Origin: Pseudomonadota bacterium
GTDB taxonomy: Bacteria > Pseudomonadota > Alphaproteobacteria > Rhizobiales > Pleomorphomonadaceae
Assembly (NCBI GenBank): GCA_018262575.1
Contig: JAGSYU010000022.1
Coordinates: 1 to 35,216, forward strand
Length of the DNA stretch: 35,216 nucleotides
Reading direction: 5' to 3'
Below the pieces are notes generated by a model. It did no database searches and was not told the DNA's origin. It was given only the letters and a program-made list of their open reading frames with translations. The position numbers and the translations under genes were made by a program. This document shows, one piece after another, positions 27,231 through 35,216 of the stretch; the first letter of the stretch is position 1, and every line of letters begins with the position of its first letter.

Positions 27231-28151
27231 TCAGGCAGCCCGGCTGGATCGGCTGCGGGCGATCGCCTCGATATGCTCAGGCCCGATACCACAGCACCCG
27301 CCGACGATGGTGGCGCCGTTGCCGATCCAGCGGTCGACCCACTTGAGATAATTAGGCGGGTCGAGATCGGGTCTCAGCTCGGAGATGCCGGCATAGGGCT
27401 CGTCCGATGGTGGTTCCGGCACGAAGGCATTGGCGTAGACGCCGAGTCCGATGCCGGGCTTACCAAACGCGTCTATGGCTAGACGGGCGGCCTTCAGTGC
27501 GGTGCTCATCACCTCGGGCTGGCTGCAATTGAACAGGATAGCGGCGGCCCCGGCATTCAGCGTCCGCGACACGGCATCGCCGACGGGCTCCCAGGACCTC
27601 AGTTCGGCTGGACCGGTGCGCCCGCGCTCGTCGCGCAGCGTATAGGAAACATAAACCGGCTTGCCCGTCGGCGCGGCGGCTGCCAACGCCGTCAGCGCCT
27701 CTGCCGTCGAACTTTGAGTTTCGATCAACCAGACATCGACATGCGGCGCCAGGCCCGCCACGAGTTCTGCCAGGATGCGCGGAGCCTGCTCTTCGATGAA
27801 CTTGTCCGGCCGATAGCTCTCGAAGATTGGCGGCAATGAGCCGGCCACCGTCACCTTGTGGGACGCGGCGTCCGCCACCGCGCGGGCGATCGAGCCGGCA
27901 CGATCGGCAAGCACACGGCCTTCGGCGCTGAAGCGCTGCTCGCCGATCATGTGCGGGACGAGGCCGTAGGAGTTGGTGGTGATGATCTCGGCGCCGGCGT
28001 CGACATAGGCTTGATGGGCGCGGCGGACATAGTCCGGCGCTTCGATCAGCGACAGCGCCGACCATTCCGGCAGACGGAATGGCGCACCCAGCCGTTCGAG
28101 CAGGCGCCCCATGCCGCCGTCGAGGATGGTGAATGTGGGGTCAGCAGTCAT
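27231..28151 (-). CDS. mmuM: Homocysteine S-methyltransferase family protein
   Basis: 306 residues of the cobalamin-independent betaine/S-methylmethionine-homocysteine methyltransferase family. It opens with ILDGGMGRLLERLG, has TTNSYGL and keeps the three zinc-binding cysteines: Cys209 in FNCS and Cys286 and Cys287 in GGCCGIGPEHI. The usual reaction moves a methyl group from S-methylmethionine or betaine to homocysteine, giving methionine. It is downstream of a polar amino acid importer on the same strand (36-base gap), which suggests the importer supplies the methyl donor or a related amino acid. Other thiols such as selenohomocysteine, or roles in removing methyl groups from a transported compound, cannot be excluded. 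Confidence 0.9.
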   Translation of the reverse strand: MTADPTFTILDGGMGRLLERLGAPFRLPEWSALSLIEAPDYVRRAHQAYVDAGAEIITTNSYGLVPHMIGEQRFSAEGRVLADRAGSIARAVADAASHKVTVAGSLPPIFESYRPDKFIEEQAPRILAELVAGLAPHVDVWLIETQSSTAEALTALAAAAPTGKPVYVSYTLRDERGRTGPAELRSWEPVGDAVSRTLNAGAAAILFNCSQPEVMSTALKAARLAIDAFGKPGIGLGVYANAFVPEPPSDEPYAGISELRPDLDPPNYLKWVDRWIGNGATIVGGCCGIGPEHIEAIARSRSSRAA

Positions 28152-28187
28152 GGATCGGTTCTCTTTGAAGTGCGCTGGATGTGGCGA

Positions 28188-29030
28188 TCATCGGCGAGGA
28201 GCGCCGTAGGCGCGGCCGAAGCGTGTTTCCAGGCGGTGCTGGACAATTTCGAACAGGATGGACAGCAGCCAGTAGATGAAAGCGGCCGTCAGTAGCATCT
28301 CCATGTAGTGGTAGGTCGACCGACCGTAGGACTGGGCGAGGAAGTTGAGTTCCCAAAGGCCCATCAGCGACACCAGCGACGAATCCTTCAGCATCGACAC
28401 GAACTGGGCGCCGGCCGGTGGAATGATGACGCGCGCCGCCTGCGGAGCGATGATCTTGATCGCGGTCAGTGTCGGCGACAGGCCGAGCGACATCGCCGCC
28501 TCGCGCTGGCCGCGTGGCACCGCCGTGATACCGGCACGGATGGTCTCGGCCAGATAGGCGGCGTAGTTGAGCGATAAAGCCATCACGCCTGACGTCAGTG
28601 CCGACAGGACGATGCCGAACTGCGGCAGGGCGAGGTAGATCAGCAGCACCTGAACGAGAAGCGGCGTGCCGCGGAAGAAGGAGGCATAAAAGGTGGCAAC
28701 GGCGAAGGCGACCGGGTTGCGTGACAGCCGACCGAGCGCCGTCAGCACGGCGAGACCGACGGCGAACACCATCGACATCGCCGTGACCAGCAGCGTCAGC
28801 GCCACACCCTGAACGAAGCCATTGGGCGACAGACGCAGGCCGAGCATGAACGGCAGCTTGGTCCGGATCAGCGCGAAGTCGAGGCCCAGCTGGTAGAGCC
28901 CGGCGAGCAAGGCGGCCAGGAGCAGCGCCCAGGTGATCCAGACCCGAAGCCGGAAATCGAGATGCAGCCGGGGGTGTTTCGCCGGCTGCACAATGATCGA
29001 CGGCATCGCGCCGGTGATGTCACTCGGCAT
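28188..29030 (-). CDS. Polar amino acid ABC importer permease
   Basis: 280 residues of the HisM/GlnP family. Membrane segments begin at about 31-49; a long cytoplasmic loop holds the coupling motif REAAMSLGLSPTLTAIKIIAPQ split around 185-206, and FFRGTPLLVQVLLIY is the conserved substrate-pathway helix. Start 29030 overlaps the end of the binding-protein gene by 11 bases. Only one permease gene is present and no ATPase gene lies next to it, so the ATPase must come from elsewhere or from outside the operon. Confidence 0.9.
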   Translation of the reverse strand: MPSDITGAMPSIIVQPAKHPRLHLDFRLRVWITWALLLAALLAGLYQLGLDFALIRTKLPFMLGLRLSPNGFVQGVALTLLVTAMSMVFAVGLAVLTALGRLSRNPVAFAVATFYASFFRGTPLLVQVLLIYLALPQFGIVLSALTSGVMALSLNYAAYLAETIRAGITAVPRGQREAAMSLGLSPTLTAIKIIAPQAARVIIPPAGAQFVSMLKDSSLVSLMGLWELNFLAQSYGRSTYHYMEMLLTAAFIYWLLSILFEIVQHRLETRFGRAYGAPRR

Positions 29031-29841
29031 CTTTGGTGATGTCCGTGTGGAACCACGTCTGCGAAATCTTGGCGATCGTGCCGTCTGCCTTGAGCTCTTT
29101 GATGACGCGGGCGACCTCGGCATCCCACTCGGGATCGCCCTTGTCGGTGACGACGGCATTCGGCTCGGCGAACAGCGGCTTGCCGACCACCTTCAGCTTG
29201 CCGGTCGCTTCGACCTGCCCCTGCGCCGTCCCCGCCGAAGCGACGATGGCGTCGAGCCGGACACCGGGTCCGAGAGCAAGGTTCTGGAAGTTGACCGTCT
29301 CGTCGCCCGGCACCGCTTCGACGGTATCGAACGGGAACTCGATGGCCGGTTGGCCGGGAATGACAAAGCTGCGGTTGACGTAGGCCTCATAGGATGAGCC
29401 GGTGCCGACGCCGATCTTCTTGCCGGTGATGTCCTTGGCCGACTGGATGGCCGTCTCGTCCTTATTGACCACCAGCACCGCCGGCAGACTGTAGTAAATC
29501 GCCGGGAAATTGACCACCTTGGCGCGTTCTTCGGTCGGCGTCGCCGAGGAGATTGCAACGTCCCAGCGGCCGGCCCACTTGCCACCGATGATGGCTTCCC
29601 AGCCGGGTGTTTCGAGCTTCAGCTTGACGCCAAGTTTCTCAGCAAACGCCTTGGCGACGTCGACGTCAAAGCCGTCGAGCTCGTTCTTGTCGTTGATGAA
29701 GCCAAAGGGTGGATAATCATTGACCAACACATCGACGACTTCGCCTTTCGACTTGACGCGGTCGAGAGTTTCGCCAGCGAAGGCGGTAACAGGAAGGGTG
29801 ATGGCGAGAGCGGCGAAGGTGGCGATGTACTGGCGTCTCAT
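29020..29841 (-). CDS. Amino acid ABC importer, periplasmic binding protein (SBP_bac_3)
   Basis: 273 residues. A signal peptide (MRRQYIATFAALAITLPVTAFAG shortened here to its MRRQY and VTAFA ends) precedes the domain: VNDYPPFGFINDKNELDGFD, VDVAKAFAEKLGVK, GGKWAGRWDVAISSATPTEER, KKIGVGTGSSYEAYV and DGTIAKISQTWF. Start 29841 is an ATG; TTG 29850 would add three residues. Unlike the other three binding-protein genes in the window it has no hairpin after its stop and overlaps the permease gene. The ligand is unknown; the neighbouring methyltransferase and BisC-type gene suggest a sulfur amino acid or its sulfoxide. Confidence 0.9.
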   Translation of the reverse strand: MRRQYIATFAALAITLPVTAFAGETLDRVKSKGEVVDVLVNDYPPFGFINDKNELDGFDVDVAKAFAEKLGVKLKLETPGWEAIIGGKWAGRWDVAISSATPTEERAKVVNFPAIYYSLPAVLVVNKDETAIQSAKDITGKKIGVGTGSSYEAYVNRSFVIPGQPAIEFPFDTVEAVPGDETVNFQNLALGPGVRLDAIVASAGTAQGQVEATGKLKVVGKPLFAEPNAVVTDKGDPEWDAEVARVIKELKADGTIAKISQTWFHTDITKDAE

Positions 29842-29910
29842 GACTGGCAAGCCCCGATGGTTTTGATGTCGCCATCATGCGGCTTTCCATCGGCACTGCC
29901 GACCATGCGC

Positions 29911-30041: not shown

Positions 30042-32348
30042 TTACACAGAGGGGCTATGCGGCGTGGTCGAAAGATCTGGCTGCCGGTCGATCGACAGGT
30101 CGGGCAGCGGCTTGGTCCAGCGCTCGATCGATACCAGCGCCGTGTGGGCGATGTTGCCCTGCGACAGGCCCGAGGCACCCTTGTCGATGGTCAGCGTGTT
30201 GGGGTTGCCGTGTACGTCGATCAGCTCGCCGTCTACCTCCCGCGGGTCATACCAGGCGCCGGTGGCCATCCAGGCGACGTCCTCGCGGATGCCGTCGGTG
30301 ACGACGACGGCGCCCAGCGCTTTGCCGCGGGCGTTCGATAGCAGGACGATGTCCCCCGCCGACACCTCGAGACGAGCGGCCGTGGCCGGATGGAGATAGA
30401 CCGGCTCGCGGCCGTCGATCTTGGTCGCCCTGGCGACCGGGCCATTGTCGAGTTGGCCGTGCAGGCGAGTGATCGACTGGCCTGATGTGAGGTGCAACCG
30501 ATCACCGGCATCCGCCGCCCCCAGCCATTCGGCAGGCTCGATCCATACCGGGTGGCCGGAACAGTCGGGGAGAGCCAGGCTGGCCAGCCAGTCGCTGTAA
30601 AGTTCGATGCGACCACTCGGCGTGTCGAGCGGAAACGCCTCGGGATCGGCGATGAAGTCGCCGAACTGGATTACCTCGCCAGCTGGATCGGGCCGGTCGA
30701 AGCGGCCGGCGTCCCGGAAGGCGTCGAAATCGGGCAGCGTCACCCCGTGCCGCTCGGCGACAGCAGCCGAGTCCTGCCAGAGCCGCTTGAGCCAGCCGGC
30801 TTCATCAAGACAATCGGTGAAGGCGTCGGCGACGCCGAACCGCTCGGCCAGACCGCGGAAGGTGGCATGGTCGTCGCGCGCTTCACCCTGGGGCGGCAGC
30901 ACCTTGTCCATGAACACCAGCGATCCGTCGCGCCGGTTGATCATGATATCCTCGCGTTCGAGCGGCGAGGTAATGGGGAAGACGATGTCGGCGCGGCGGG
31001 CGGTCGGTGTCCACCAGATGTCGTTGACGATCACCGTTTCCGGCCGCGTCCAGGCCTCGGCGAGCCGGTTGAGATCCTGATGGGCATGGAAGGGATTGCC
31101 GCCGGTCCAGTAGACGAGGCGGATGTCGGGATAGACCAGCGTCTCCCCGTTGTAGGTGAAGCTGCCGCCTGGATCGAGCAGCAGGTCGGCAATGCGCGCC
31201 ACCGGGATATGGTCGGCCACGGCATTGCGGCCCTGCGGCAGTGACGGCCAGGGCAGCGGCCGGATGGGGCGACCGACCGGCGTCGTCGAACCATAGCCGA
31301 AGCCAAAGCCACCGCCCTTGCTGCCGATCTGCCCCAGCATGGCAGCCAGTGCCAGGCCCATCCAAAGTGGCTGCTCGCCGTGATCGGCACGCTGGATGCC
31401 CCAGGCGAGCGAGATCATGGTGCGCCGCGCCGCCATCTCGCGGGCAAGATCGCGGATGCGGTTGGCGTCGATGCCGGTAATGGCCGCCGCCCAATCGGCC
31501 GACTTCACCGTGCCGTCGGCTTTGCCGGTCAGATAGGCCTCAAGATGCGGCCAGCCGTGGGTGTAGCGGTCAAGGAAGGCGCGGTTCACCAGCCCGTCCT
31601 CGATCAGCACATGGGCAAGGCCCATCATCAATGCCGTGTCGGTGTTGGGGCGCGGCGCGATCCATTCCGCTTCGAGCGCCTCGGATACATCGGCCCGGCG
31701 TGGCGAGATGTTGACGATGCGGGCGCCGGCCTGGTGGATGCGGCCGAGCCAGCTTTCCACCTCGTGGCCGGTGGTGCCGCTCGACATCACCTGCGCCGTT
31801 CGGCCGGAGATGCCGCCGAAGCACAGCAGCAGCTCGGTGTTGCCCTCGAGCAACGACCAGGACGTCATACGATCCTGGAACAGGCCGTTGCTCATGCCGG
31901 TGATGTGCGGCAGCAGCACTTCGCCGACGGCGTGCGAATAGGTGTCAACCGAGCGCGTGTAACCGCCGATCAGATTCAGAAAGCGCCTCAGCTGCGATTG
32001 GGCATGATGGAAACGGCCGGCGCTGGCCCAACCGTAGGAGCCACCGAAGATCGATCGGTTGCCGTGGGTGTCGACGACGCGGCGGAGTTCACCGGCGGCG
32101 AGATCCAGCGCCTCGTCCCATGGAAGCTCGACGAAGCTGTCGCGGCCGCTGCGGTTGCGGTCGCGCTTTTCCAGCCACGCACGACGAACGGAGGGTCGGC
32201 GGATGCGCGTCGCCTCGTCGCGCACGGCCCCCAGCCAGCCGCGACCGATCACCGACGGCTGCGGATCGTCGGCGAGCGGCGTCAGATCGGGGGCGTCCGC
32301 CTTGCCGGTGACGGTGTAGGTCCCCCAGTGGGCGGCGGTGTAGCGCAT
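30042..32348 (-). CDS. BisC-type molybdopterin oxidoreductase (biotin/methionine/TMAO sulfoxide reductase family)
   Basis: 768 residues, the length of cytoplasmic BisC enzymes, with no Tat signal and no cysteines for an iron-sulfur cluster at the N-terminus. It starts THWGTY-like (AAHWGTYTV), contains the molybdenum-ligand motif GGSYGW (Ser104 as I align it), VYWTGGNPFHAHQDLNR, NDIWWTPTARRADIVFPITSPLER and the C-terminal guanosine-dinucleotide-binding domain (NARGKALGAVVV). Known relatives reduce biotin sulfoxide, methionine sulfoxide, DMSO or TMAO. It begins 24 bases after the RuBisCO-like gene and so appears to be the last gene of that operon. AGGGAA lies 9 bases before the ATG. The physiological substrate, and whether it is part of the sugar-phosphate pathway, are unknown. 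Confidence 0.92.
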   Translation of the reverse strand: MRYTAAHWGTYTVTGKADAPDLTPLADDPQPSVIGRGWLGAVRDEATRIRRPSVRRAWLEKRDRNRSGRDSFVELPWDEALDLAAGELRRVVDTHGNRSIFGGSYGWASAGRFHHAQSQLRRFLNLIGGYTRSVDTYSHAVGEVLLPHITGMSNGLFQDRMTSWSLLEGNTELLLCFGGISGRTAQVMSSGTTGHEVESWLGRIHQAGARIVNISPRRADVSEALEAEWIAPRPNTDTALMMGLAHVLIEDGLVNRAFLDRYTHGWPHLEAYLTGKADGTVKSADWAAAITGIDANRIRDLAREMAARRTMISLAWGIQRADHGEQPLWMGLALAAMLGQIGSKGGGFGFGYGSTTPVGRPIRPLPWPSLPQGRNAVADHIPVARIADLLLDPGGSFTYNGETLVYPDIRLVYWTGGNPFHAHQDLNRLAEAWTRPETVIVNDIWWTPTARRADIVFPITSPLEREDIMINRRDGSLVFMDKVLPPQGEARDDHATFRGLAERFGVADAFTDCLDEAGWLKRLWQDSAAVAERHGVTLPDFDAFRDAGRFDRPDPAGEVIQFGDFIADPEAFPLDTPSGRIELYSDWLASLALPDCSGHPVWIEPAEWLGAADAGDRLHLTSGQSITRLHGQLDNGPVARATKIDGREPVYLHPATAARLEVSAGDIVLLSNARGKALGAVVVTDGIREDVAWMATGAWYDPREVDGELIDVHGNPNTLTIDKGASGLSQGNIAHTALVSIERWTKPLPDLSIDRQPDLSTTPHSPSV

Positions 32349-32372
32349 GGCGTCGGTTCCCTGTCGTCGGCT

Positions 32373-33482
32373 TCAGGTAAGGCGGGCCCGCATTTCCTTG
32401 ATGGTTTCGCCGATGCGGTCAAGATGCCTGAGCAGACTGCCGCCGAGAAGATAGACGACGTCATCACCATACATGGTGCGCATGTCCGAGGCGCGATCGA
32501 CGCTCATGCCGCCACCCGGGCTCGGGAAGATCGTCCGGCCGATACCGTCCGATGCCCGGCAGGCGTCGGCGATGGACAGGCATTCGGCGGTTGAGAAGCC
32601 GAAACGGCCGCCGACATTGGGGAAGATCGAAATATCGGCACCGGCAAGGCGCTGCAGCACGCCGAACATCATGGCGTGGGTAAAGCCGAGCGTGTCGGAC
32701 AGCACATGGCTGCCGAGGAAGGTCGGGTGCGCCATCAGTGGCAGGTCGAACCAGTCGGCGGTCGCGAGGCGACGGGTAAGGTCGAAGCCGAACAGGCCCG
32801 GCATCACCAGCGCGCCGCCCGCGCCCGCTTCCTTGGCGAAGCGGGCAAAGTCGACAAGCTCGTCGCTGTCCCCGGCGATGTTGGGAAAATAAAGGCTATG
32901 GCCGCCGGTCTCGCGGTTGGCGCGTGCCACGGCCGCAGCCACCTTCTCGACCCGCCGCTTGAACGGGGCGGATTTCTGATTGGTCAGGCCGTGGTCGTCC
33001 TTGATGATGTCGGCGCCGCCGAGAGCGGCGGCATAGGCGATGGCGGCCAGCGTATCGGCGTCGCTGCCCTGCGGCTTGATCACCGGGGCAATCAGACCGC
33101 CGGTCGGGCGATGCGCCCGGTCACGCAGGCCGGCGATGCCGAAGCGGGCGCCGGTGAAATCGGCCGAAAGGCGTTTTCCCGGCTCGAAGCCGACGACCTT
33201 GATGCCTTTCTGGATCGACGAGTTGCCAAAGATGACGTTGAGGAGCTGCGGCAGCTCGGCACCGGTGCTGTCGGGACTGTAGGTCAGATGGGCAAGAAAG
33301 GCGCCTGGACCCTCCGGCGCGACGCTGACGATTTTGCCGAGGATGACATCCTCGATATAGCCCTTCGGCACCACGTCACGCGGGATCTCGACGGTCTGTT
33401 CGAGGGCGATGCCCTCGGCACGCTCGGCGGCTTCGTCGAGGCTGGAAGCGAAAATGCGATAAAAGACAGAAAAGCGCGACAT
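32373..33482 (-). CDS. RuBisCO-like protein (type IV large-subunit homologue)
   Basis: 369 residues: an N-terminal alpha/beta domain (1-125) and a TIM barrel (126-369). The barrel shows IKPQG (Lys136 equals catalytic Lys175 of RuBisCO; Lys177 is replaced by Gln138), GGADIIKDDHG (Lys161 equals the carbamylated Lys201, Asp163 equals Asp203, but Glu204 is His164), MAHPT (His252 equals His294; Arg295 is Pro) and LLGGS. Loop 6 lacks the usual Lys334. These changes rule out CO2 fixation. RuBisCO-like proteins act as enolases, isomerases or decarboxylases of sugar-acid phosphates (methionine salvage, oxo-isoapionate). The ATG at 33482 has GGAGG 7 bases upstream and shares one base with the stop of the transketolase gene. 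Confidence 0.95.
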   Translation of the reverse strand: MSRFSVFYRIFASSLDEAAERAEGIALEQTVEIPRDVVPKGYIEDVILGKIVSVAPEGPGAFLAHLTYSPDSTGAELPQLLNVIFGNSSIQKGIKVVGFEPGKRLSADFTGARFGIAGLRDRAHRPTGGLIAPVIKPQGSDADTLAAIAYAAALGGADIIKDDHGLTNQKSAPFKRRVEKVAAAVARANRETGGHSLYFPNIAGDSDELVDFARFAKEAGAGGALVMPGLFGFDLTRRLATADWFDLPLMAHPTFLGSHVLSDTLGFTHAMMFGVLQRLAGADISIFPNVGGRFGFSTAECLSIADACRASDGIGRTIFPSPGGGMSVDRASDMRTMYGDDVVYLLGGSLLRHLDRIGETIKEMRARLT

Positions 33483-34486
33483 CACAGTGCCTCCGCCTTG
33501 GCCGACGAGTGGACGGCGTCGATGCGGACGGCGTCGAGGTCGGCGTCGGTGATGCCGAAGTTTTCGCCGGTCAGCCGTTCGATGGCGGCCACCAGCGCTG
33601 GGGCGTCAAGGCCGTAGGTGCGCATCAGGTAGGGTCGTGAGCCGCCGTGGGCGTAGGTGTCCTTCAGGCCAAGCCGGATCAGCCGCTTGGCGATGCCGGC
33701 GTCGGCGATGGTCTCGGCCACCAGCGAGCCGATGCCGCCTTCGGTGACGTGGTTCTCGAGGGTGACGACGCCGTGGCGCACCGACTGCAGGTGGTCGAGC
33801 AGATATTGGGCGTCAAACGGCTTGATGGTGTTGAGGTGGATGTGACGGATCGACACGCCGGCCTTCTTCAGTGCCGCGCGGGCGCGCAACGCCTCCTCGG
33901 TGGTGATGCCGGCGGTGATCACCAGCACGTCGGTGCCGAGCGATAATTCACGCGCCTTGCCGACGACGATCGGCGTGTCGAACAGGCGTGGCACCGATCC
34001 GCGCAGCACACGGGCGTAGACCGGACCGTCGACGCTGTCGGCCGCCTCGACGATCGACTCCACCTCGGTCGCGTCGCCGGTCTCCAGAATGGTCATGTTG
34101 GGGATCGAGCGCATCACCGAGATGTCCTCGATCGCCTGATGCGTCATGCCGCCCGGCGTGGTGACGCCCGGCAAAAAGCCCATCAGCCGCACCTTGCGGC
34201 GCGGATAGGCCACCGAGGCGACCAACTGGTCGTAGGGGCGGCGATAAAGGAAGACGCCGAAGGTGTGCAGAAAGGGGCGAAAGCCGGCAAGGCCAAGGCC
34301 GCCGGCAAAGCTCATCATGTTCTGCTCGGCCATGCCGAGCGAAAGGAACTGGTCCGGATGGCGGTCGCGGAAGCCATCGATCTCACAGGACGATGTGAGG
34401 TCGGCTGACAGGCAGAGCACTTCCGGGTGGGCGACGGCATAAGCCTCGAAGGCGCCGGCGTAGGGACGGTTGACGAGTTCGACCAT
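33482..34486 (-). CDS. Transketolase C-terminal subunit (pyrimidine-binding and C-terminal domains)
   Basis: 334 residues matching the second half of a split transketolase. The thiamine-diphosphate-activating Glu54 is in LGMAEQNMMSFAGG; LHTFGVFLYRRPYDQ, GVTTPGGMTHQAIEDISVMR and PVYARVLRG form the pyrimidine domain and VLVITAGITTEEALRARAAL with VVTLENHVTEGG the C-terminal domain. It needs the N-terminal subunit encoded directly upstream (9-base gap, with GAGGT overlapping that stop). Split transketolases are known, for example, for D-apulose 4-phosphate (AptA/AptB), an enzyme giving dihydroxyacetone phosphate and xylulose 5-phosphate. The substrate here is not known; being locked to a RuBisCO-like gene by a one-base overlap argues for a shared pathway. 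Confidence 0.92.
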   Translation of the reverse strand: MVELVNRPYAGAFEAYAVAHPEVLCLSADLTSSCEIDGFRDRHPDQFLSLGMAEQNMMSFAGGLGLAGFRPFLHTFGVFLYRRPYDQLVASVAYPRRKVRLMGFLPGVTTPGGMTHQAIEDISVMRSIPNMTILETGDATEVESIVEAADSVDGPVYARVLRGSVPRLFDTPIVVGKARELSLGTDVLVITAGITTEEALRARAALKKAGVSIRHIHLNTIKPFDAQYLLDHLQSVRHGVVTLENHVTEGGIGSLVAETIADAGIAKRLIRLGLKDTYAHGGSRPYLMRTYGLDAPALVAAIERLTGENFGITDADLDAVRIDAVHSSAKAEAL

Positions 34487-34495
34487 GACGGGACC

Positions 34496-35216
34496 TCAGC
34501 GGACGTAATCGACGGGGGAGACGCCGAGCTCGGCGGCGATGGCATCATTGGTGGCAGCGCGGTCGGCCTCGTCCTTGAACCGGACGTAGTGCAGGCGCGG
34601 GAAGCGGCGCTCGAGGTAGCTCATGCTCTGGAAGGGACTGGTCTTGGCCAGGATGATCAGCGGCTGGCCGGGATGGGACATTCTGGCGGCATCGCGCATC
34701 TCGGTGAGGTCGTGACCGTTGATCTCGGCGACGATGGCGCCGAACGCCTCGAACTTGGCGCGAATGTCGCGCACGTCCATCACCGAAGCCATGGCGCCGT
34801 CGCACTGCTGGGCGTTGACGTCGACGATGGCGTTGAGCGTGTCGATGCCGTGGTAGGCCGCGGCCTGCACCGCTTCCCAGGTCTGGCCTTCTTCAACCTC
34901 GCCGTCCGACATGAACACCCAGACCCGACCGGTCTCGCCCCTGCGCCGCCGCCCCCAGGCAAGGCCGGCCGCCGTCGACAGGCCGATGCCGAGCGTGCCG
35001 TTGTGCATTTCCATGCCCGGCGAATGCTCGGCGCCGATCATCTCCACCGACGAGCCATCCTTGTTGAACTGGCCGAGCGCTTCCGGTGCCAGGCGGCCGA
35101 CTTCGATCAGCGTCGCGTAGGCGACGAGGGCATAGTGGGCCGGCGCAAAGATCAGCCGATCGAAATGCGGCAGCGCCGGGCCGTTGTAGCCGGCGCCAGT
35201 GTGGTAGTCGGCGTTG
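34496..35216 (-). CDS. Transketolase N-terminal subunit (partial, 5' end off the window)
   Basis: 240 codons are visible; the start lies beyond the right edge. The translated edge reads NADYHTGAGYNGPALPHFDR, then IFAPAHYALVAYATLIEVGR, AEHSPGMEMHNGTLGIGLSTA cut here, and the thiamine-diphosphate motif SDGEVEEGQTWEA...NAIVDVNAQQ (GDG-type start with its metal-binding Asn). It is the pyrophosphate-binding half of a two-subunit transketolase, with the C half downstream. About 30 to 40 residues are probably missing. The stop is at 34496-34498, with 9 bases between it and the next ATG. Confidence 0.93.
   Translation of the reverse strand, partial: NADYHTGAGYNGPALPHFDRLIFAPAHYALVAYATLIEVGRLAPEALGQFNKDGSSVEMIGAEHSPGMEMHNGTLGIGLSTAAGLAWGRRRRGETGRVWVFMSDGEVEEGQTWEAVQAAAYHGIDTLNAIVDVNAQQCDGAMASVMDVRDIRAKFEAFGAIVAEINGHDLTEMRDAARMSHPGQPLIILAKTSPFQSMSYLERRFPRLHYVRFKDEADRAATNDAIAAELGVSPVDYVR

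Follow-up and report, generated by a model that had tools for sequence, protein, structure and literature searches.

A split transketolase in place of the cupin at loci of RuBisCO-like proteins of the DeepYkr-type group: a predicted variant of the MTA-isoprenoid shunt in Pleomorphomonas and its relatives

We analyzed a 35,216-nucleotide stretch of DNA (the window; positions 1-35216 of contig C121 of genome G000) from a bacterium that belongs to the genus of Pleomorphomonas carboxyditropha. At its far end lies a minus-strand operon that encodes, 5' to 3', the two halves of a split transketolase (tktN and tktC, with products TKN and TKC), a RuBisCO-like protein (RLP) and a BisC-type molybdoenzyme (Table 1). 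In related genomes the TKN-TKC-RLP unit recurs, usually near genes of 5'-methylthioadenosine (MTA) salvage, and at these RLP loci the split transketolase replaces the cupin methylsulfurylase. The best overall explanation, which we judge reasonably probable, is an RLP-transketolase variant of the MTA-isoprenoid shunt for which a module containing BisC would serve as a second feeder.

The operon

An earlier note on this DNA described four same-strand genes set apart by 9 bases, a one-base overlap and 24 bases, and the open frames and Pfam matches confirm that arrangement. The 9 bases separate tktN from tktC and the 24 bases separate RLP from BisC, while the overlap of tktC and RLP, at ...CTGTGATGTCG, amounts to 1 base if RLP starts at the ATG at 33482 and to 4 bases if it starts at the GTG at 33485. 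The tktN frame is open at the window end. The exact order with BisC downstream was found only in the window's own GTDB genus (the window, L002, L003 and G715); another genome of that genus, G779, has its RLP at C22:440611, which is also where L003 lies on its contig. When 20 genomes of the family were sampled, BisC (E <= 1e-150) and TKC (E <= 1e-120) occurred in the same four genomes, which also carry a transketolase-type RLP in the order sample described below, and neither was found at these thresholds in the remaining 16.

Neighborhoods of related RLPs

A pattern scan of genome contigs with the window RLP returned 30 loci, 24 of which (L002-L025, 55-91% identity) were treated as the same clade. 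TKC lies directly beside RLP, with TKN before TKC, at 21 of these 24, and since this adjacency recurs in other genomes the unit is more than a chance arrangement. The three loci with no transketolase nearby (L008-L010) come from genomes with a TKC of 81-82% identity elsewhere. Within the fetched stretches mtnA was present at 20 loci, mtnK at 18, sugar ABC importers at 20, a match of 38% or more to a gene annotated in the records as a bifunctional aldolase/dehydrogenase at 11, and a purine-nucleoside-phosphorylase-type candidate MTA phosphorylase at four; no cupin was found at any of the 24. BisC was present at only four, and we therefore rejected it as an obligatory partner. The earlier picture of four genes locked into one operon thus survives for TKN-TKC-RLP, which do travel together, but not for BisC, which rarely accompanies them. 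Among the six other loci, five (four of Nitrospirae type and one Fibrobacter) had a cupin and no transketolase, and L031 had a transketolase.

The order mtnK-mtnA-tktN-tktC-RLP was found on annotated plasmids of Shinella, Ensifer, NT-25, Pararhizobium and Mariluticola, and in Ponticoccus the order is phosphorylase-amidohydrolase-mtnA-BisC-tktN-tktC-RLP. An mtnA match was found in 29 of the 30 genomes searched, 28 of them above the cut-off. At L024 transketolase and RLP have no mtn gene within 15 kb, and that genome has a partial mtnA match, below the cut-off, at a contig end. The mtnA of the window genome scores 398 bits (cut-off 279) and lies beside mtnK on contig C285. This mtnK-mtnA operon (L052, 4110-13941) stands next to a SorC-type regulator and a class II aldolase and likely serves the dihydroxyacetone phosphate (DHAP) shunt; L052 lies near genes that cluster with the NosD-type and nitrous-oxide-reductase-type genes of L053.

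Co-occurrence with the transketolase and loss of the cupin

Among the 385 genomes sampled across the class, 17 had an RLP (E <= 1e-40): the window genome, two with a transketolase-linked RLP, 13 with a cupin-linked one, and one (L102) with neither partner in the 2.6 kb fetched. Since none of these RLPs besides that of the window exceeded 45% identity, the order was sampled too, and 34 of its 397 genomes had an RLP at the same threshold. Transketolase-type RLPs, defined by 46% identity or more, occurred in 22 genomes, G691 included although its gene runs off a contig, and all 22 have a TKC of 67% or more. None of the 12 genomes with only the RLP type of 35-40% identity has TKC (E <= 1e-75); G478 has both RLP types plus TKC. 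The hypergeometric probability of this overlap (22 RLP, 25 TKC, 397 genomes) is 3e-33, uncorrected for relatedness. TKC is directly beside RLP in 21 of the 22 genomes, the window included; the two lie about 20 kb apart in G482, and in G581 the RLP contig holds no more than the end of TKC.

Eight of the 13 RLP loci of the order sample that lack a transketolase were fetched, and seven of them have a cupin; G612 (L141) does not. No RLP locus that was read contains both transketolase and cupin, although many sample loci reach only some 1.5 kb to either side of the match, and only in L002-L025 was a wide stretch examined for the two together. A cupin search whose seed has Rru_A2000 (3jzv) as its closest solved relative found homologues in all five cupin genomes and in one of 26 transketolase genomes, several of the genomes being incomplete; none was found in the other 25, in G612, or in the window genome (86% complete). 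Conversely, three cupin genomes tested had TKC matches of 25-30% identity only, and the Terrarubrum plasmid had none. A further RLP arrangement was seen in G612, which is of the same genus (L181, 4552-9454, plus strand): an S-methyl-5-thioribose kinase (396 bits, above cut-off), a glycerol-1-phosphate-dehydrogenase-like gene, a cupin-type RLP that no cupin accompanies, and a PfkB kinase that shares 79% identity with the L002 one.

Phylogeny and signature residues of the RLP

A maximum-likelihood tree of 79 RLPs was produced and rooted at its midpoint. Transketolase-linked and cupin-linked RLPs together make up one side of a branch with support 100/97 (71 sequences); the eight on the other side are MtnW, RLPs linked to a four-carbon-acid-sugar kinase (OiaX-like) and Photo RLPs. 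A transketolase clade of 42 sequences (38 transketolase-linked, four without a recognized partner) has support 92/80, and a cupin-linked clade of 25, which includes 3qfw, has support 87/95. The transketolase-linked L131 and L039 branch below the fork at which these clades meet, so that linkage to the transketolase may be the older state, but the supports are moderate, the branch of L039 is long and the root is only a midpoint. At L039 (8031-12608, on a Vibrio nigripulchritudo plasmid) a distant split transketolase (47-50% identity) and RLP (31%) adjoin a xylulokinase-like FGGY kinase and a sugar ABC importer. The neighbors of the window RLP in the tree are L002, L003, G715, L023 and L004, the last of which has mtnA-mtnK and a sugar importer at its RLP locus. 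The solved structure closest to the window RLP is 3qfw (220 bits; MtnW, 123 bits), which we take to be R. palustris RLP1.

The K-x-D-x motif ends in His in 45 of 46 transketolase-type RLPs, that of the window among them, and in 25 of 25 cupin-type RLPs, and it ends in Glu in both MtnW and all five OiaX-like sequences; the second position is Asp in 67% of transketolase-type and in all cupin-type RLPs. In this count the four partnerless sequences were entered as transketolase-type, and two further partnerless ones and 3qfw as cupin-type. The window RLP shares the group of 71 sequences with the cupin-linked, DeepYkr-type RLPs, within a clade of its own, and is predicted to be a 1,3-isomerase of the MTA-isoprenoid shunt. 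Identity with MtnW (enolase) was rejected on the tree, the motif and the model scores (TIGR03332, 140 against a cut-off of 513.6 bits; NF007095, 177 against 409), and identity with OiaX on the tree and a score of 46 bits against a cut-off of 700 (NF042437).

Active-site residues of the split transketolase

The closest solved relative of tktC is the split transketolase of C. hydrogenoformans (6yaj, 186 bits), and that of the full-length tktN homologue in L002 is 6yak, the N-terminal half of a split transketolase. We aligned 47 distinct TKN+TKC pairs (70 loci) with a canonical transketolase, a DXS, an annotated AptAB and one other split transketolase, and give the columns in what we take to be E. 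coli transketolase numbering. The catalytic Glu411, the Asp155 and Asn185 that bind Mg and thiamine diphosphate (ThDP), His473 and Arg520 are kept in 47 of 47, and a Ser column in 46. The columns of His26, His461 and Asp469 hold Tyr, Phe and Gly, respectively, in all 47 pairs, and that of His100 holds Met in 46 and Gln in one; at the His261 and Arg358 columns the alignment is gapped and uninformative. A site that has lost such polar contacts with the sugar would fit a donor that carries a methylthio group at C1.

The kept cofactor ligands and catalytic Glu would equally suit an ordinary pentose-phosphate transketolase that supplies or removes triose, with the RLP linkage a regulatory convenience, and the second module described below does place the transketolase with a xylulokinase-like kinase and a 4-epimerase-like enzyme. 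We regard this explanation as quite unlikely, because the window genome has other transketolase- or DXS-like frames (27-31% identity, 468-683 residues), none of the 47 pairs keeps the His100 or the Asp469 column, and the 22 of 22 co-occurrence with RLP together with the exclusion of the cupin argues for a pathway-specific role.

Split transketolases also occur in D-apiose catabolism. A route for apiose or another branched sugar, in which the split transketolase would act on apulose-4-phosphate and the RLP would be OiaX-like, was the analogy drawn in the earlier note, and PMC6302742 does mention RLPs in D-apiose catabolism. This analogy now appears highly improbable on either side. In an annotated AptAB, which is 26-28% identical to the transketolase family of the window, the three columns His26, His100 and Asp469, all lost here, are intact. 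The OiaX score, the branch that sets the window RLP apart from those linked to the four-carbon-acid-sugar kinase, and the mtnK and mtnA of its relatives argue against a link to apiose or sugar acids, and no apiose gene was recognized in the annotated neighborhoods.

The BisC-type enzyme and a second module

The BisC label of the earlier note agrees with TIGR00509 being the best of the 20 models listed (859 bits), but the cut-off of that model (1017.55) is missed. The Ser column, presumably the Mo ligand, is conserved in 15 of 15 BisC sequences, none of which has a twin-arginine motif within its first 45 residues; the set includes two paralogues of 29-30% at other places in L170/L171. Thirteen BisC carriers were read (the window, L002, L003, L023, G691, G482, L091, G682, G739, Marinovum, G715, L011 and Ponticoccus), and 10 of them have an AldII gene of 77% or more. 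No AldII was found in G715 or in the genome of L011; for Ponticoccus the stretch read was 21 kb. BisC therefore mostly travels with a second, separable module that shares the transketolase and consists of a xylulokinase-like FGGY kinase, a polyol dehydrogenase (ADH), the 4-epimerase-like AldII, a SorC regulator and an importer. Sulfatase genes also lie beside BisC/transketolase clusters, at L011 (681-3559, Pfam) and in Marinovum (L095, 1-1366, record annotation).

The transketolase pair adjoins BisC-FGGY-ADH-AldII-SorC in Marinovum (L095), L091 and G482 (L175). In L003 (with L059), G022/G719 and G691 the module adds PfkB, an importer consisting of a solute-binding protein and RbsA-RbsC-RbsC, and the RLP, and L002 has the same extended module, visible from within ADH onward. 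Contig C271 of the window genome carries FGGY, ADH, AldII, PfkB, SorC and a solute-binding protein, with AldII 96%, PfkB 91% and SorC 93% identical to those of L002. An overlap between C271 and the window end was looked for and not found, and only the analogy with L002 and L003 would place C271 upstream of the window operon. PfkB was present in all six genomes whose module contains the RLP (G000, L002, L003, G022/G719, G691 and G482) and was not seen in the four modules read that lack it (L095, L091, G682 and G776). This pattern would fit a PfkB that makes a ketose-1-phosphate for the RLP and an FGGY kinase that makes a ketose-5-phosphate bypassing it.

This type of AldII was found under 12 of the 28 genome handles searched, which represent 10 distinct genomes (G001/G755 and G022/G719 share contigs). 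Its best listed model is L-ribulose-5-phosphate 4-epimerase NF005123 (238 bits in the window genome and 245 in Marinovum; cut-off 251), and the FGGY protein is closest to xylulokinase. Since the module holds both, the two feeders point to a donor of the D-xylulose-5-phosphate type.

Alternatively, the sugar handled by BisC and the FGGY/ADH/4-epimerase/PfkB module may be an unrelated one, and the window operon a chance fusion of two catabolic clusters in which only the transketolase is shared. The module does occur without an RLP at the locus in Marinovum (L095), L091, G682 and G776, with no BisC seen beside the last, and the RLP-transketolase unit lacks BisC at 20 of 24 loci. That one unusual transketolase is common to both suggests, on the other hand, chemically similar intermediates, and BisC stands within the mtnA operon of Ponticoccus, between mtnA and tktN, and beside mtnA in L011, with no FGGY in either stretch read. 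As both of these BisCs share only 48-50% identity with that of the window, the argument from mtnA is a weak one, and we consider the chance fusion possible, if somewhat unlikely.

Methylthioxylose and its sulfoxy form are described for mycobacterial lipoarabinomannan in the accessible part of PMC8531672, and natural methylthio-pentoses or their S-oxides are a possible substrate here. Our search of the literature on methylthio-sugar S-oxides found nothing on the combination, and the matches listed concerned other methylsulfinyl compounds only.

Proposed pathway

In the RLP-transketolase variant of the shunt, MTA or methylthioribose (MTR) would be converted to 5-methylthioribulose-1-phosphate by MtnK or a phosphorylase followed by MtnA; the PfkB kinase may also make this compound. 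The RLP, as a 1,3-isomerase of the DeepYkr kind, would turn this into 1-methylthio-D-xylulose-5-phosphate. Transketolase donors need the D-xylulose configuration, which this compound has. The split transketolase, in the place of the cupin, would then cleave between C2 and C3 to give glyceraldehyde-3-phosphate and a methylthio-C2 unit on ThDP. The simplest fate of that unit would be a phosphoketolase-like elimination to methanethiol and an acetyl group; otherwise it may leave as free methylthioacetaldehyde. As a second feeder, BisC together with the polyol dehydrogenase, pentulokinase and 4-epimerase may reduce S-oxides of methylthio-sugars or polyols and lead them to the same ketose phosphate. 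The new route proposed in the earlier note thus keeps an RLP that would rearrange a sugar phosphate and a transketolase that would split the resulting ketose phosphate, and loses the sugar-acid substrate and the decarboxylation. In its most specific form, which we offer tentatively and hold to be rather doubtful, the proposal makes the split transketolase a ThDP enzyme of a new kind, which would cleave 1-methylthio-xylulose-5-phosphate and then expel methanethiol in a phosphoketolase-like step, with glyceraldehyde-3-phosphate, methanethiol and an acetyl group as products. It would form the hub of a pathway yielding carbon and sulfur, with two inputs: MTA and MTR by way of the RLP, and S-oxidized methylthio-pentitols by way of BisC, polyol dehydrogenase, pentulokinase and 4-epimerase.

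The same two enzymes could instead degrade other 5-deoxy sugars, such as 5-deoxyribose from 5'-deoxyadenosine, if the RLP converted 5-deoxyribulose-1-phosphate to 1-deoxyxylulose-5-phosphate (DXP) and the transketolase split DXP into glyceraldehyde-3-phosphate and a C2 unit. TKC scores 159 bits against a DXS model, and PMC8102628 describes promiscuity toward 5-deoxy sugars for MtnP, for an MtnA-type isomerase and for an aldolase, and suggests a promiscuous transketolase step in 5'-deoxyadenosine salvage by M. jannaschii. The positions of BisC in Ponticoccus and L011, however, point to a sulfur substituent, and the nearest characterized RLPs use methylthio substrates (PMC5893883). We therefore hold the 5-deoxy-sugar route to be unlikely.

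Several points weigh against the RLP-transketolase variant of the shunt. What the sequences show directly is gene order, clade, signature residues, co-occurrence and the replacement of the cupin, whereas every substrate, the transketolase reaction, the fate of the C2 unit and the action of BisC on S-oxides are predictions. In the tree the transketolase clade, the cupin clade and the transketolase-linked L098 and L099 meet at an unresolved fork (82/81), so that the transketolase-type RLP does not fall within a characterized clade. A Bosea split transketolase has Tyr and Met at the His26 and His100 columns, as here, and Ala and Tyr at those of His461 and Asp469; because it partly shares the changes, these mark a wider group and are not unique to one function. 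Three genomes of one genus (G682, G739 and G776) have TKC without an RLP match (E <= 1e-40), and the transketolase therefore probably has substrates other than the RLP product. Transketolase-RLP pairs also occur outside methylthioribose contexts, since no mtnA was found in the 21 kb read around the L039 pair. One transketolase genome, G003, does have a cupin homologue (48%). In the window genome mtnK and mtnA are on another contig beside the class II aldolase, which could route MTR through the DHAP shunt instead. The FGGY (XylB) and 4-epimerase proteins miss their NCBIfam cut-offs. Finally, no gene for handling acetyl groups or methanethiol was recognized among the recurrent neighbors, for which no dedicated search was made, and the fate proposed for the C2 unit is to that extent unsupported.

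Genes downstream of the operon

The window continues downstream of BisC with an importer and a methyltransferase (Table 1). The solute-binding protein has counterparts behind BisC in L002 (93% identity), near the transketolase operon in G715 (89%) and beside mtnA in L054 (92%), and the methyltransferase is 91% identical to those in L002 and L054. In L054 (10954-14865, Pleomorphomonas) the solute-binding protein, permease and methyltransferase genes, 87-92% identical to those of the window at 27231-29850, adjoin a copy of mtnA, which suggests that the methyltransferase belongs to the same sulfur metabolism.

Table 1. Operon genes and downstream genes of the window
Feature	Position	Strand	Match or remark
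tktN, N-terminal (ThDP-binding) half of split transketolase	34496 to >35216, cut by contig end	-	Transketolase_N 6.1e-16
tktC, pyrimidine-binding and C-terminal half	33482-34486	-	Transket_pyr 8e-25, Transketolase_C 1e-21 (Pfam)
RLP, predicted 5-methylthio-ketose-1-phosphate 1,3-isomerase, DeepYkr-type group	32373-33485	-	RuBisCO_large 1e-16
BisC-type S/N-oxide reductase, 768 residues	30042-32348	-	Molybdopterin 4e-52, Molydop_binding 3e-23 (Pfam)
Family-3 solute-binding protein (cystine-type)	29020..29850, start of open frame approximate	-	Possibly same regulon
Amino-acid-type ABC permease, same importer	28188..29159, listed open frame probably overlong at start	-
Homocysteine S-methyltransferase family protein	27231..28151	-	S-methyl_trans 3.5e-56

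Relation to known systems and significance

The closest known system is the MTA-isoprenoid shunt of R. rubrum and R. palustris (MtnP, MtnA, DeepYkr RLP and a cupin 1-methylthio-xylulose-5-phosphate (MTXu-5P) methylsulfurylase). Their DeepYkr RLP and cupin chemistry is published, the R. palustris RLP1/cupin pair being backed by knockouts and assays and Rru_A2000 being named MTXu-5P sulfurylase (accessible parts of PMC5893883 and PMC4958253). The window RLP belongs to the same group and has the motif His for Glu, the operon of most relatives, or its surroundings, includes mtnA together with mtnK or a phosphorylase, and MTXu-5P is the predicted common intermediate. The differences are the split transketolase in the place of the cupin, the added sugar ABC importers and, sometimes, BisC, and predicted products that are glyceraldehyde-3-phosphate and a C2 unit and not DXP. 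With the DHAP shunt (MtnK or MtnP, MtnA and a class II aldolase) the first steps would be common, and the RLP and transketolase would act here instead of or besides the aldolase; R. palustris keeps both the RLP and the aldolase routes (accessible part of PMC5893883).

Among the more distant likenesses, AptAB and other split transketolases are also encoded by two genes but differ in the active-site columns. OiaX (3-oxo-isoapionate-4-phosphate decarboxylase) and MtnW belong to the same RuBisCO superfamily (PF00016) but stand outside the window RLP group and have the motif Glu. The BisC resembles the BisC/DMSO reductase family in length, Ser column and best model, but misses the cut-off and has a sugar pathway as its partner. 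Our search of the open literature, which did not extend to subscription papers, found no description of an RLP with a transketolase in MTA metabolism, and the accessible parts of PMC6302742, PMC7895386 and PMC8102628 do not describe the combination; the last of these does report that transketolase acts promiscuously on 5-deoxyribose. The system is real and conserved and, as far as the search went, an undescribed form of the MTA-isoprenoid shunt; the mechanism predicted for it is plausible.

If the proposed pathway is correct, it would provide RuBisCO-like proteins with a second downstream partner in MTA metabolism, would make a route of MTA salvage a source of central carbon, and would assign a function to the family of split transketolases that co-occurs with the transketolase-type RLP. 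It also offers a lead toward natural S-oxidized methylthio-sugars as nutrients and toward what BisC-type reductases may do biologically in the catabolism of sugars.

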